In this document: piece after piece, positions 9,184 to 31,145 of the stretch
How positions within the stretch are numbered: position 1 is the first letter of the stretch
How the letters are laid out: every line of letters begins with the position of its first letter
IMG/VR virus record: IMGVR_UViG_3300046167_000035
Coordinates: 1-31,145 of that record
Reading direction: 5' to 3' (one strand)
DNA length: 31,145 nucleotides
DNA from: a virus
Made by a program: the position numbers and the translations under genes
Notes under the pieces: model-generated
The model's database searches: none
The model's input: only the letters and a program-made list of their open reading frames with translations
Told to the model about the DNA's origin: nothing

Positions 9184-9483
9184 ATGTCACAAAAACGTAC
9201 AATCACCGACCACAAAACTGGTTACAAATCAGAGTTCATTACAGAGGATGACAAGTTTGTCTATCACACAACTCAAGATGTTGCTCCTGTCATTGACCAC
9301 GTTAAGAAACTAAGAGACAATACACCTAAGCCTGGAAAAGATATGCGACACATAGCTGAAGTACCCATGGTAATTTGGCAAAAAGCATTACGAGAAGGTT
9401 GGTCACAGGATTCCGCAAAGTGGAAACAATGGCTAAACAATCCAGACAATAACGTCTTTAGAACTTGGCAAGGTAAAGTATGA
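9184..9483 (+). CDS. Conserved hypothetical protein after capsid
   Basis: 99 residues, soluble, mixed alpha/beta, starting MSQKRTITDHKTGYKSEFI. It contains a conserved-looking AEVPMVIWQKALREGWSQD segment and a C-terminal WKQWLNNPDN...FRTW. I recognise this as a gene that follows SU10-type capsid genes in marine phages, but no function is assigned. Its TGA overlaps the ATG of the adaptor gene (ATGA at 9480-9483), suggesting coupled translation with head-completion genes. Confidence 0.75.
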   Translation: MSQKRTITDHKTGYKSEFITEDDKFVYHTTQDVAPVIDHVKKLRDNTPKPGKDMRHIAEVPMVIWQKALREGWSQDSAKWKQWLNNPDNNVFRTWQGKV

Positions 9484-10127
9484 CATATGCAGAATTAAAA
9501 ACAGCCATAGCTGGTTATCTAAACAGATCAGATTTAACATCTACCATAGATACATTTATTGATAATGTAGAGGCTGAACTTAACAGAAAGTTAAGAACAA
9601 AAGACATGATTGTAAGAGCTACTGCAACAGCAGATGCTCAATACTTAGCAGTACCAGATGATTGGCTAGAAGCCATCAATGTAGAAATAACATCAAATAA
9701 TTTCAGTCCGTTATTTCAACAGTCTATAGAATCTTTAGATGTTTATAGAAAATCAAATAACAACTCAACAGGTCAACCAGTATATTATGCAATGGTTGAT
9801 GGTACTATAGAATTAGCACCAACTCCTGACGTTCCTTACACCCTACAGCTGACTTATTATGGTAAAATAAATGCACTGAGTGATACCAATATAACTAACT
9901 TTGTATCAGTATCAAACCCAGATGTTTACTTATATGGTGCATTGAAACACGCTTCTATCTACTTGATGGAAGACGACAGAATAGCAATGTTCACACAACA
10001 GTTTGAGAAAGCATTAGAAGAAATGAGACTTGCTCAAGAGAAAGCTGCATTTGGTAAGGGTTCTCTAATGATGAGAAGAAAGACTTACGGAACAAAACAA
10101 AAAAGAAATTACTACTACGGTAATTAA
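9480..10127 (+). CDS. Head-tail adaptor protein, gp4/gp6-like
   Basis: 215 residues. The start, TYAELKTAIAGYLNRSDL, and the following FIDNVEAELNRKLRTKDM are the hallmark of phage adaptor proteins (P22 gp4-like/SU10 adaptor), which sit beneath the portal and connect it to the tail. The middle is beta-rich (YLAVPDDWLEAINVEI; YTLQLTYYGKINALSD), and the C-terminal half is helical with a basic end (MMRRKTYGTKQKRNYYYG). Position after capsid and before tail genes agrees. ATGA overlap with the previous gene. Confidence 0.82.
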   Translation: MTYAELKTAIAGYLNRSDLTSTIDTFIDNVEAELNRKLRTKDMIVRATATADAQYLAVPDDWLEAINVEITSNNFSPLFQQSIESLDVYRKSNNNSTGQPVYYAMVDGTIELAPTPDVPYTLQLTYYGKINALSDTNITNFVSVSNPDVYLYGALKHASIYLMEDDRIAMFTQQFEKALEEMRLAQEKAAFGKGSLMMRRKTYGTKQKRNYYYGN

Positions 10128-22704: not shown

Positions 22705-22748
22705 TTACTCGTTAATAGGTAAACAATCACATCAATACTGCTGATTTT

Positions 22749-22768
22749 GGCAAATGGATGGCAAATGG
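22749..22768 (+). repeat. Right arm-type repeat pair of attP
   Basis: GGCAAAT at 22749-22755 and at 22760-22766, 11 bp apart, matches the left pair in sequence and spacing. The second copy runs directly into the integrase ribosome binding site (GGAGG, 22767-22771), so integrase binding here could also repress its own translation start region or transcription. Autoregulation is inference. Confidence 0.65.
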
Positions 22769-22776
22769 AGGAAAGC

Positions 22777-23869
22777 ATGGCGCAATACCAGACTGATACA
22801 AAAGTGAAAGGTCTTAGAATTTATCCAACAGGATATTATGTGTACTATCGGATAGATGGTAGACGAAGAGTTATGAAGTTAGCCAACACAGATATTCTTA
22901 TTGGTGTTGCAAGAAACAAAGCACAAAAAATACTTGGTGAAGTAGCACAAGGCATTGATCCATTAGAAGCAAAGAAAGTAGAAGCTGATGCTTACACCTT
23001 AAACCAGGCATTTGAGTTAAAGCTAGAAGACTTGTTCAACAATAACAAGAAGTGCGTAGAGATGAAGGATGGCAAGATAGATGGTGAGCCAAGACGTATG
23101 TGGGATAGAGATGTTAAGAATACTTTAGGCAAGATGAAACTAGAAAGCGTTGAGACTGGTGATATAACTAAGCTACATATTGCAGTAAGTAAGAGAGCTA
23201 AGTACCAAGCCAATAGAGGTGGTGCAATTGATTAGTTCTGTGTTTGAGAACAGCATTAGATTGTCTTTAGTTAAGTATAACCCTGCAAAGTACGTTAAAA
23301 AGAACCCAGAGATGCAACGTGATAGGCCTTTAACAGATAAAGAGTTCGCTGAAATAAATAAGCAGATCAATATTATAGAGTCACAAACGCATGAGCGACA
23401 CTTAAATTCTATCAAGTATATAAGGCTATGTATCTTGACTGGTGGTAGATGTGTTAGCGAAATTGGTAGTGCTAAGTGGTCTGATCTTGATGGTAATAAA
23501 TTAGTCTTAGAAGAACATAAGACAGACTACCAGGGTAAGCCAAGAGTAATACATCTAAACAATCAAGCTATGGCAATCATTAACTCTTGCGATAGAAACA
23601 GCGAAACAATACTTGGTGTTAAATATCCTTTCCATACTTGGAACAAAATTAGAAAAGCTGCGGGATGTCCAGATGTGACGTTCCACGATCTAAGACATAA
23701 CTTTGGTACTATGGCAGGTGAGCAAATGAAGATTGAAGATGTGAAGACTCTTATGGGACATAAAAGCATTAAGGCTACTGAGCGTTACCGTAAAACTAGA
23801 GAGCATATAGCCACCGAAGAAATGCAGAATGTCGGTAACTATATGCAAAAGATAATGATGTCTAATTAA
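22777..23869 (+). CDS. int: Tyrosine integrase, frameshifted
   Basis: Catalyses site-specific recombination between attP and the host attB. ATG 22777 is chosen because GGAGG (22767-22771) precedes it. The first frame holds an N-terminal arm-binding-like part (GLRIYPTGYYVYYRIDGRRR) and the core-binding start (AKYQANR), and stops at 23235. The +1 frame continues LISSVFENSIRLSLVKYNPA and contains the full catalytic set: Arg in ILTGGRCVSEI, HDLRH, and GHKSIKATERY with Tyr nucleophile. Deleting one G at 23218-23219 joins the frames into 363 residues of normal integrase order. Ends overlap the convergent DUF3310 gene by 4 bases. Confidence 0.9.
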
Positions 23870-24144
23870 AGTTCTTCGTAGTGTTTAATTAAAGCGTTTA
23901 AATACCATTGAGCTTTTTCTAAATCTTGGATGTTTGCGTCTTTGTCTTTGTGTCTGTAAAGATACTTCCAGATGTTACCTTCTAAGTAAGCTGGAAAATT
24001 TCCAGAACCAACTCTATCTTTTATCAAATCAATACATTCTATTTTTCCTTGATAGTGCATAGGTCGTTGAACTGGATCATGTTTTTCTTTTTTTAATTCT
24101 TCCAATTTATCCCACTCCTCTCTTGTAACTTTATCTATACTCAT
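23866..24144 (-). CDS. DUF3310 family protein
   Basis: 92 residues on the minus strand, starting at 24144. The second half is a textbook DUF3310 match: PMHYQGKIECIDLIKDRVG, then YLEGNIWKYLYRHKDKD and a C-terminal DLEKAQWYLNALIKHYEE. The family includes T7 gp1.7-type small proteins linked to nucleotide metabolism; enzymatic function is not settled. Its ribosome binding site is the strongest in the window: AAGGAGGT on the minus strand (24149-24156), 4 bases from the ATG. It is the only convincing minus-strand gene, converging with the integrase and diverging from the early block. Confidence 0.9.
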   Translation of the reverse strand: MSIDKVTREEWDKLEELKKEKHDPVQRPMHYQGKIECIDLIKDRVGSGNFPAYLEGNIWKYLYRHKDKDANIQDLEKAQWYLNALIKHYEEL

Positions 24145-27437: not shown

Positions 27438-27770
27438 ATGTATCGGAGGCCGAGCTTATGTTCATACTGTCATGGCTTGGCTTCTCCTTTACTTCATATT
27501 CGTAATGGCAAGATCAAAGGAGCTTGTAGTTACAAACATCTTAAACTTATCGGGGAAAACAAAAAAATGGAGCATATCAAAAACTTTGCACAGATCAACG
27601 AGGAGTTGTTATCTGTCGCATTATCGGAAAGCAAATCTAAATACATAGAGGCTTCCAAAAAAAATAAATCTTACGTTCTGCATGAATGGAGTAAGGAAGA
27701 CAGAATAAATTTTGTCCGAAGGCTTGTGTCTAGCTATTTAAACAATTCTAAGGCACAGGCTGATGACTGA
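27438..27770 (+). CDS. Small zinc-finger-like early protein
   Basis: About 110 residues if started at ATG 27438 (MYRRPSLCSYCHGLASPLLH). An alternative in-frame ATG at 27399 would overlap the DUF669 gene; neither has a strong ribosome binding site. Cys and His residues in LCSYCHG and GACSYKH are spaced like a zinc-binding ribbon. The rest is helical and charged (NEELLSVALSESKSKYIEAS; EDRINFVRRLVSSYL). It overlaps the primase start by 8 bases. A DNA-binding accessory to replication is a fair guess; no named family. Confidence 0.65.
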   Translation: MYRRPSLCSYCHGLASPLLHIRNGKIKGACSYKHLKLIGENKKMEHIKNFAQINEELLSVALSESKSKYIEASKKNKSYVLHEWSKEDRINFVRRLVSSYLNNSKAQADD

Positions 27771-29620
27771 TTTAACACAATTTTATGGTGAGCAAGGTTT
27801 AGTAATAGACAAGAACTTTGCTTTTACAAGTACCAGTAAATCTAATGGCGATCTTATTAGTGAGATGCGTTCTAATGGTTTGCTTGTAGATTTTTTAGAT
27901 ACCACAGGCAATCTAGTTAGAGTTAGCGTTAGTGCAACTGCAAATTCAAGACCAGATAAATCAAATGAACGATCTGGTTACTATGCGTACAATCAATTAG
28001 ATAATAATTTTATTTGCATTTACGGTAATTGGAGAACATCCCAGGAGTGGAAGTTTACTTCTTATAATCCTAACGAGATGTCTGCTGAACAAAAACGATT
28101 AATGCAGACTAAGTTGGAGGAAAGTCAAAAAAGGCGAGAGGAAGCTAAGACTAAGAAGCAAGAAGAGGTTTCCATATATGCCAAAGAAAAGTTTGCTAGT
28201 GCGAATGAAGTGACGGATCATAATTATTTAAATGATAAAAAGGTTAAAAGCTATGGTTTAAAAACAATCAATGGAAACCTATTGATTCCCGTGCATTCTA
28301 TCACCAAAAGTGATAACGGTATATTAGTAAACGATATAAAGTCCCTCCAATATATCTTTCCAGATGGCAGTAAAAAGTTTGTCGGTGGTGGCGAGATTAA
28401 AGGCAATGTATTTTTAATTGGTTGTGAAGCAACTGAATTGCCCTATCTTGATACCTTAATTTTATGCGAGGGATACGCTACAGGAAGCTCTATATTTGAA
28501 GCTACAGGATTACCTGTTGCGGTGGTCTTCTCTGCTAATTTCTGTTTAACAGCGAGTGTTAGGTTGCGTAAGGTAACGGGTGCTAAGTTTGTTATTGCAC
28601 TTGATAACGATACGTCTGGTATTGGTGAGAAAAATGCTAACGAGGTAGGTTAATGCAGTTAGTAATTGTGTTTCCAGACTACCAAGTATTACAGGTGATT
28701 TTAATGATCTGCATTTAGCTAAAGGATTAGAACAGGTTAAGTTAGAGTTATTAGAGTCTAAGTTCAACATAAGACAATATGCTATTCGTAACTTGGTTGA
28801 AGAACCAAAACCAATTGAGTGGTTAGTAGATAGTTTTATTCCTCTTGGTAAACCAGGAATCATTGCGGCAGTAGGTGGGGTTGGTAAGTCTTTATCAATG
28901 ATCCAACTTGCTTTGGGTATTGCTACAGGTGGTCAATGGTGGGGAAAAAACATCATGCAAAAAGGATCAACTGTAATTTTTGCAGCCGAAGATGATTTGT
29001 CTGAAGTGCATAGAAGGATTGCTTCGCTTGATCCTTTAGGTTTACGATTTCAATCTGAGTATGATGTGTATGTCTTTCCGATTCCAGAACAAAAAGAACC
29101 AATGATTTTATTAAGGGAAGAGGGCGTTACATCAATGGCTCAAGAATTAGTTGAAGAGTTAAAGACAATACCAAACTTACAGTTAGTGGTATTTGATCCA
29201 CTCCAGGCATTTACAACGGGAAATATTAGTTCAAGTAATGAAGTAGGCCAATTGTGGGGTTCTTACTGTGCAAACATATCAGCCAGACTAGGGGTAACAT
29301 GTCTCACCGTTCATCATTTAGCTAAATCGGCTCTTACCAATGATTCAGATGATGCACTAAGCCATAGAGCTGAAATTCGTGGTGCTTCAAGTATTACTGA
29401 TTCAGTTAGGTTCGCGATAGCTATGTGGTTGGCTGATAGTGATACTTGCGAAAAGATTTGCATGGATCAAGGTATTGAATTTGACAGAATGGCAGTTGTT
29501 AAGGCTAGTCTGGTTAAAAGTAATTCGGGTAACGTAGATTACCAAACTAAAACTTTGGTTCGTAATGGTGCAGTTTTAGAAATTTTAGATGAAAATAAAA
29601 AGTCCTTTGAATGGGACTAA
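27763..29620 (+). CDS. TOPRIM primase-RecA-type helicase fusion, frameshifted
   Basis: The reconstructed 618-residue protein links a primase-like N-terminus to a helicase. The TOPRIM part shows LILCEGYATGSSIFEATGLP (Glu236) and FVIALDNDTSG (Asp281, Asp283), the metal-binding set. The frame breaks at TAA 28651-28653. Deleting one T of 28650-28651 gives NEVGNAVSNCVSRLPSITGD and leads straight into the RepA/AAA_25-type helicase: Walker A AAVGGVGKS (Lys375), Walker B LVVFDPLQAF and the conserved HHLAKS. No zinc-binding N-terminal domain is evident. It would prime and unwind phage DNA; no DNA polymerase is encoded here, so it presumably uses the host's. Confidence 0.85.
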
Positions 29621-29632
29621 GGAGAAAGGAAA

Positions 29633-30798
29633 TTGAATGTTTTAAGTTTGTTTGATGGTATGAGTTGTACGCGTATAGCTCTTGAAAGACTTGGTATTGA
29701 TGTTAATCATTACTATGCAAGTGAAATTGATAAATACGCAATGAAAGTTAGCGAAGAAAATTATCCAAATATTATACAAATAGGTGATGTTACTGATTGG
29801 CAGTCTTGGGATATTGATTGGAGTTCTATTGATTTAGTTATCGGTGGTTTTCCATGTCAGTCTTGGTCACTAGCTGGTAAGCAGTTAGGCGATAAAGATG
29901 AAAGAGGTAAATTGTTCTGGGTAATGTTAGATGTAATGAAAAAGGTTATAGAAAATAATCCTAATGCTTATTACTTAATGGAGAACGTAAAGATGAAAAA
30001 AGAGTTTGAAGAGTATATTACTTTTCATACTGAACAGGCTTTACCAAATGTGAATAAGTATTTAATTAATTCAGCGTTAGTGTCAGCACAAAATAGAGTC
30101 AGATATTATTGGACAAATATCCCTGGAGTTGAACAGCCTGAACAAAGAGGCATTGTTTTAAGAGATATATTAGAGACAAGAGAGATAGAAAGGTTTGTCA
30201 GATAAAGCCATTGCATACATGAATAGAGGTAGCGAGAAATGGTCGGGTGGTAAAACTAGAGCAGAGCATTACATAAAACATGAAAGCAAAAAGTCTAATT
30301 GTTTAACAGCGAAATATGCACAAAGGCGTTCCTTATGGTGTTATTGCGATTGATAAACCAATCCAGGTTGGTGAAGCTATAGATATAAATGGTCACGACA
30401 TATTAAAAAGAGTCTATTCAGAAGATGGTAAATCACCAACTTTAAATGCTTGTACGGGTGGCAATAGAGAACCAAAGGTAATGATTGATAAAAGAAAACC
30501 TAATCAAATTAATCCTAGTAAGAAAGCAAGTGGTAAACAACCATACATGCAAGATAGGGTTTTTCATGTTGATGGTAAGTCTCATGCTTTAACAAGAGAA
30601 TTTGCATCAAGAACCAATGTCGGGGATGAGCTAGAAGTGTATTGGCGAAAGCTAACTCCTATTGAGTGCGAAAGATTACAAACAGTTCCAGATGATTATA
30701 CAAACCATGTATCAAATACTCAGCGTTATAAAATGTTGGGCAATGGATTCACGGTTGAAGTAATTTGTCATATTTTAAATAACATGGAGATTAAATAA
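29633..30798 (+). CDS. dcm-like: C5-cytosine DNA methyltransferase, twice frameshifted
   Basis: Transfers methyl from S-adenosylmethionine to cytosine C5, most likely to shield phage DNA from host restriction. Starts at TTG 29633 with GGAG and AAAGGA upstream. Motif I is LSLFDGMSCTRIAL, motif IV GGFPCQSWSLAG (catalytic Cys75), motif VI YYLMENV and motif VIII QNRVRYYWTN. The frame breaks at TTT 30194-30196, continues in DKAIAYMNRGSEKWSGG, and breaks again at AAA 30322-30324 before GVPYGVIAIDKPIQV. The C-terminus has KLTPIECERLQTVPDDYT and motif X (LGNGFTVEVI). Removing one base at each point gives 387 residues. No partner restriction enzyme is seen. Confidence 0.9.
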
Positions 30799-30929
30799 TG
30801 AATGGGAAAGGTAGCGATCAACGACCAAGACAAATAGATAAAAAAGTATTTGAGGATAATTGGGACAGGATATTTGGTAAGAAAAAGACCAAAAAAGATG
30901 CTAAAAAAGATAAACCAAAACAAAAGTGA
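30798..30929 (+). CDS. Small basic conserved phage protein
   Basis: 43 residues, starting MNGKGSDQRPRQIDKKVFED and then NWDRIFGKKKTKKDAKKDKP. The opening GKGSxxRP and the NWDxIF phrase mark a short conserved phage protein that I recall from early regions; function unknown. Its ATG overlaps the methyltransferase TAA (TAATG), so it is the last gene of the early operon before the repeat-containing gap. Confidence 0.75.
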   Translation: MNGKGSDQRPRQIDKKVFEDNWDRIFGKKKTKKDAKKDKPKQK

Positions 30930-30931
30930 TT

Positions 30932-30993
30932 GTATATACGGGTATACGATTGTTGTATATAGGGGTGTCCAATAATCGTACATAGGGGTGTAC
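30932..30993. repeat. Three 16-bp repeats at exact 23-bp intervals
   Basis: GTATATACGGGTATAC (30932-30947), GTATATAGGGGTGTCC (30955-30970) and GTACATAGGGGTGTAC (30978-30993). Starts are spaced exactly 23 bp. The first and third are imperfect palindromes (GTATA...TATAC; GTACA...TGTAC), the middle less so. This is the layout of iterons at a replication origin or of tandem operators for a repressor. It lies in the 207-bp gene-free gap after the early operon. Confidence 0.75.
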
Positions 30994-31016
30994 AAATATC
31001 CTAGACTAAACTAATA

Positions 31017-31045
31017 GAGAGAGTGAGCCTTTTGGCTCATCTCTC
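31017..31045 (+). terminator. Strong hairpin, possible terminator of the early operon
   Basis: Two 6-bp stem blocks separated by one bulged G (31023): GAGAGA (31017-31022) with TCTCTC (31040-31045), and TGAGCC (31024-31029) with GGCTCA (31034-31039), closed by a TTTT loop. It follows the 23-bp repeats. No U-tract follows (the next bases are CAGGGAAAAAA), so intrinsic termination is uncertain. It may protect the transcript end or be part of an origin structure. From 31046 to 31136 no gene is visible. Confidence 0.55.
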
Positions 31046-31136: not shown

Positions 31137-31145
31137 ATGAAGCAG
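31137..31145 (+). CDS. Start of the next gene (3 codons)
   Basis: ATG AAG CAG at the very end of the window, preceded by AAAGGAAA with suitable spacing. Only Met-Lys-Gln can be read. It does not join in frame to the small terminase fragment at base 1. Confidence 0.45.

Follow-up and report, generated by a model that had tools for sequence, protein, structure and literature searches.

A three-unit array of inverted repeats co-varies with a winged-helix phage protein and may be its autoregulatory operator

Near its 3′ end, the phage record IMGVR_UViG_3300046167_000035 (the window, i.e. the whole stretch of 31,145 bp analysed here) carries an array of three inverted-repeat units whose half-sites change between related phages in step with two recognition-helix residues of a small downstream protein that we call wHTH2. 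Our comparison indicates that the array is very probably the cognate binding-site cluster of wHTH2. With moderate confidence we further propose that the array is the autoregulatory operator of wHTH2. Systems of this general kind, whether operator or iteron module, are already known; for the wHTH2 family and its natural specificity series we found no description in open-access papers.

In each 22-bp unit, two 7-bp half-sites in inverted orientation enclose a 6-bp centre, and a single flanking base stands at either end. The putative binding sites, none of which is assigned a strand, follow the last small gene of the record and comprise unit 1 (ATTGTATATACGGGTATACGAT, 30929–30950; half-sites TTGTATA and TCGTATA), unit 2 (GTTGTATATAGGGGTGTCCAAT, 30952–30973; TTGTATA and TTGGACA) and unit 3 (ATCGTACATAGGGGTGTACAAA, 30975–30996; TCGTACA and TTGTACA). 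A repeat search recovered exactly three copies, starting at 30930, 30953 and 30976 with spacings of 23 and 23 bp, in agreement with the exact 23-bp step reported in the first-pass annotation. That such an arrangement is unlikely by chance was also confirmed: on a three-copy equal-spacing score with a maximum of 48, the triple reaches 40 and is the top position in the whole record, against maxima of 35 in dinucleotide shuffles of the record (n = 100) and 32 in shuffles of the gap (n = 2,000). The two units previously described as palindromic are units 1 and 3, while unit 2, the least symmetric of the three, combines one good half-site with a variant. The idea that the bound faces of the helix are related holds only approximately, given that 23 bp is about 2.2 turns and neighbouring sites are turned by roughly 70 degrees. 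When ten records were searched with the units, only the three array units exceeded shuffled sequence and no further matches were found elsewhere in the genomes, which rules out a genome-wide regulon with dispersed operators and sets the array apart from Cluster A-type stoperators, of which 20–30 are spread over the genome.

Relatives were gathered by searches with the proteins encoded downstream of the array, and yielded 47 distinct array-plus-protein combinations. The contigs concerned come from uncultured phages and mostly look marine. The array, its 23-bp spacing and its downstream flank are kept in all 47; an additional class, E (L139 and L200), differs in that units 1 and 2 are spaced by 22 bp. 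Alignment of the same gap in relatives, the check proposed at the outset, revealed extensive conservation, with three units, 23-bp spacing and downstream sequence retained both in close relatives (L002–L007 and L092) and in more distant ones (L074 and L075). The loss of the repeats in syntenic relatives, which was to count as refutation, was therefore not observed. The genes upstream of the array vary between loci, and the module therefore starts at the array. No relatives were found in bacterial genomes or among named phages, and extra scans with alignment and divergent wHTH2 queries returned the same contigs and no new ones.

The window ends nine bases into the first downstream gene, wHTH1, whose start (ATG AAG CAG, encoding MKQ; 31137–31145, plus strand) was placed by alignment to L002–L007 and their open reading frames. 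Gene order in the relatives puts wHTH2 beyond the contig end. At every locus the array stands before wHTH1 and wHTH2 or, where wHTH1 is missing, before wHTH2 only. The latter applies to eight of the 47 combinations, which represent nine loci from two distinct clades, and there the array and a hairpin directly precede wHTH2. In relatives, wHTH1 is a 121-residue protein with a weak match to Penicillinase_R, a repressor family, and wHTH2 has 144–145 residues with a sub-threshold match to HTH_36 at residues 52–106. An AlphaFold model of wHTH2 was too poor to use (mean pLDDT 39). The proposal that the repeats form the control region of a regulator whose gene lies immediately beyond the contig end is strongly supported, firstly by these two winged-helix-like genes and secondly by the recognition helix of the second, which co-varies with the repeats.

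There are three main half-site classes, and class tracks wHTH2 recognition-helix residues 89 and 91, which give the motifs HRH, NRH and NRK, in 45 of the 47 combinations. The helix GM-HRH-TVSK goes with half-sites TyGTAyA (also TTGGACA); NRH goes with TyGGmTA, one half of unit 2 keeping TyGTATA; and NRK goes with TTGGGTA or TTGACCA. Class E, with helix SRQ, has yet another half-site sequence. The copy of wHTH2 belonging to the window itself, outside the contig, is predicted to carry H-R-H. When single wHTH2 columns are ranked by raw mutual information, those that vary fast and mark clades come out on top, so we relied instead on a test of column pairs with few states and on a tree from which the helix codons had been left out. 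Taken together, columns 89 and 91 assign 42 of 44 full-length proteins to the right array class while using just three states. Of the 1,596 pairs drawn from 57 variable columns this one ranks first; two others equal it but each require ten states. The tree calls for several class switches: NRK/GGGTA turns up at three points and HRH/GTAyA within two deep clades. In independent comparisons, which are too few for a significant sign test, helix and array shift alike, one of them rarely stays unchanged and an opposite change never occurs.

Some observations do not fit so neatly and count against the operator reading. Within the clade of the window (n = 17) the classes are separated by columns 89 and 91, but column 122 separates them likewise; no other column does. 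Two contigs violate the helix/array rule, L111 with a GGGTA array and an HRH helix, and L092/L135/L198 (one contig) with a GTAyA array and an NRK helix. Both derive from metagenome 3300046167 and may reflect recombination or chimeric assembly.

That the array is read by wHTH1, or by a regulator from some other part of the phage genome, is very unlikely. In favour of wHTH1, it is the gene nearest downstream of the array at most loci and has a weak repressor-family match. However, wHTH1 shows no co-variation with array class: it is up to 100% identical in comparisons of phages that differ in array and wHTH2 helix, HRH and NRK phages among them, it is 100% identical in L105 and L107, whose array classes differ, and the nine loci that lack it still have intact arrays. 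We therefore rejected wHTH1 as the array reader. That array and helix differ around an identical wHTH1 is hard to explain unless wHTH2 reads the array. Against a regulator encoded elsewhere, none of the other genes in the nine genomes compared follows array class, a comparison in which the variable minus-strand genes are not judgeable.

The inverted repeats might instead work as a row of hairpins formed by RNA or single-stranded DNA, for instance in attenuation, priming or packaging. In favour of this, the two arms of each inverted repeat change jointly between classes, and the array as RNA folds better than shuffled sequence (z −3.3), yet the lowest-energy fold does not contain the three units as separate hairpins and the self-complementarity of unit 2 is poor. 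Orientation is also informative. The core of unit 1 is inverted in L002–L005, so that both orientations, GTATATACGGGTATAC and GTATACCCGTATATAC, occur among close relatives, and centres of the forms TAyGGG and CCCrTA are both found across classes, the centre remaining GGG-rich throughout. Flipped units of this sort fit a symmetric dimer on double-stranded DNA better than an oriented RNA element. Moreover, base pairing by itself gives no reason why the arm sequence should follow the wHTH2 helix residues. On the strength of the fold and the two orientations we rejected tandem RNA hairpins as the main reading and regard them as extremely improbable.

Why we favour an operator that acts on the wHTH2 gene itself becomes clear from what lies immediately downstream. 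A conserved, promoter-like box (ATATCCTAGACTAAACTAATA, 30996–31016, plus strand) stands at a constant distance from unit 3 in all classes, and its 21-bp consensus in relatives is ATATCCwArACTArACTAATA. We read this box as a putative promoter, in which TAAACT at 31007–31012 is a possible −10 element; a sigma-70 promoter scan called none here, which weighs against the operator reading. The box is followed by a hairpin with a one-base bulge (31017–31045, plus strand; −19.5 kcal/mol, z −3.6). Across relatives its inner pairs are TGAGCC/GGCTCA, TGGCC/GGCCA or TGCCC/GGGCA, and the position of the bulge moves with a compensating A-T to T-A change. The hairpin was dismissed as an intrinsic terminator, since it has no T-run and none was called, and no known RNA family was found in the window. 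The hairpin probably marks the 5′ end of the wHTH1-wHTH2 transcript. Both box and hairpin keep a constant distance in the interval that separates the array from the start codon. In L165, L192 and L193 the gap before wHTH2 is filled by array, box, hairpin and ribosome site.

Taken together, these features suggest a simple arrangement. A wHTH2 dimer would read the two 7-bp half-sites of each unit through helix residues 89 and 91, and three such dimers could lie side by side at 23-bp steps. Because the array abuts the promoter-like box and the hairpin of the transcript, bound wHTH2 would most likely control its own transcription, in the simplest form as a repressor that covers the −35 region. It must be said that wHTH2 itself lies outside the window, and that its family matches are sub-threshold, some of them pointing to replication initiators instead of repressors.

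The latter matches lead to another role for the same protein and sites, in which the units would be origin iterons and wHTH2 an initiator that recruits the phage primase-helicase, autoregulation being secondary. We consider this possible but less likely. Its support includes weak PHROG matches of wHTH2 (E 0.001–0.25) to 'replication initiation O-like' and related families, the HTH_36 domain noted above, the Toprim/AAA primase-helicase encoded in the early operon and an AT content of 71% right after the hairpin in the window, compared with 63% genome-wide. There is also a precedent in PLE satellites, whose origin has three semi-palindromic iterons that vary in step with the DNA-binding domain of their RepA_N initiator, RepA (PMC8263062). 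The likeness to our array is evident in the three semi-palindromic repeats and their co-variation with a DNA-binding protein, but the PLE repeats are about 30 bp long, compared with units of 22 bp here, and a Pfam search with wHTH2 matched no initiator model, RepA_N included. The lambda origin, with four 18-bp iterons (PMC3349717), likewise resembles the array in having short repeats and an early-operon protein as their (here predicted) binder. The lambda iterons, however, sit within gene O beside a 38-bp AT-rich tract, whereas the array lies upstream of the gene and, in minimal loci, has no conserved long AT-rich tract next to it. The origin reading is also weakened by the small size of wHTH2, at about 144 residues with no further domain seen. 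GC skew is uninformative on the origin, as it climbs through all records with no turning point.

In phage lambda, OR consists of three palindromic sites about 23–24 bp apart from centre to centre. The autoregulatory operator that we favour shares with OR the three palindromic sites in a row beside a regulator gene and a specificity that varies among related phages. It differs in that wHTH2 is a winged-helix, HTH_36-like protein and not of the CI/Cro type, and in that the array has neither a divergent gene nor a second operator elsewhere in the genome. Tripartite operators have been described in phages (PMC6550527); plasmid-borne iterons, for their part, can exclude related phages (PMC3349717). 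By analogy with such immunity or replication-incompatibility systems, the array/helix pair probably sets the specificity type of a phage, because nearly identical phages carry different classes. That phages which are otherwise alike have switched specificity several times may point to selection for escape from the protein of a relative, as in heteroimmune phages (PMC6550527) or in exclusion by iterons (PMC3349717). The operator and origin roles may also go together. A more ambitious version, in which a three-site array that is both operator and origin replaces CI-type immunity, and in which residues 89/91 and the half-sites of an undescribed regulator family switch together between nearly identical phages under selection to escape a resident or co-infecting relative, is unlikely in our estimation.

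From sequence alone, the analysis connects a non-coding array that carried no annotation with one particular small protein of the phage. The natural protein/site pairs HRH, NRH, NRK and SRQ provide material for tests of two-residue specificity in winged-helix proteins and, if the classes correspond to immunity or incompatibility groups, they would serve as a marker of which uncultured phages are able to coexist in one cell.

Several features of the record itself deserve mention. The phage looks temperate, with genes for terminase, portal, tyrosine integrase, exonuclease, a Sak4-like annealing protein, primase/helicase and cytosine methyltransferase, and it also carries an HTH_17 excisionase-like gene. 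The integrase (22747–23869), primase-helicase (27763–29620) and methyltransferase (29633–30798) genes are each split into two reading frames, and because all three are intact in relatives G001/L007 (367, 620 and 379 residues, respectively) the record probably holds frameshift errors. Positions 1–287 encode the end of the small terminase subunit, whose counterpart in L075 is at 9189–9689. The map appears to be circularly connected, because relatives bridge the two window ends with about 3 kb containing wHTH1, wHTH2 and small minus-strand genes. Located between the genes for wHTH2 and the small terminase subunit (7573–10042 in L007 and the same region of other relatives), these minus-strand genes form a hypervariable cargo spot that is almost wholly different from phage to phage between flanks of more than 90% identity. 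A lone DUF3310 gene (23866–24144, minus strand; PHROG 'nucleotide kinase') lies between the integrase gene and the early operon. Finally, the cytosine methyltransferase gene, just 5′ of the array, is accessory and is unmatched in most of the whole relatives compared.
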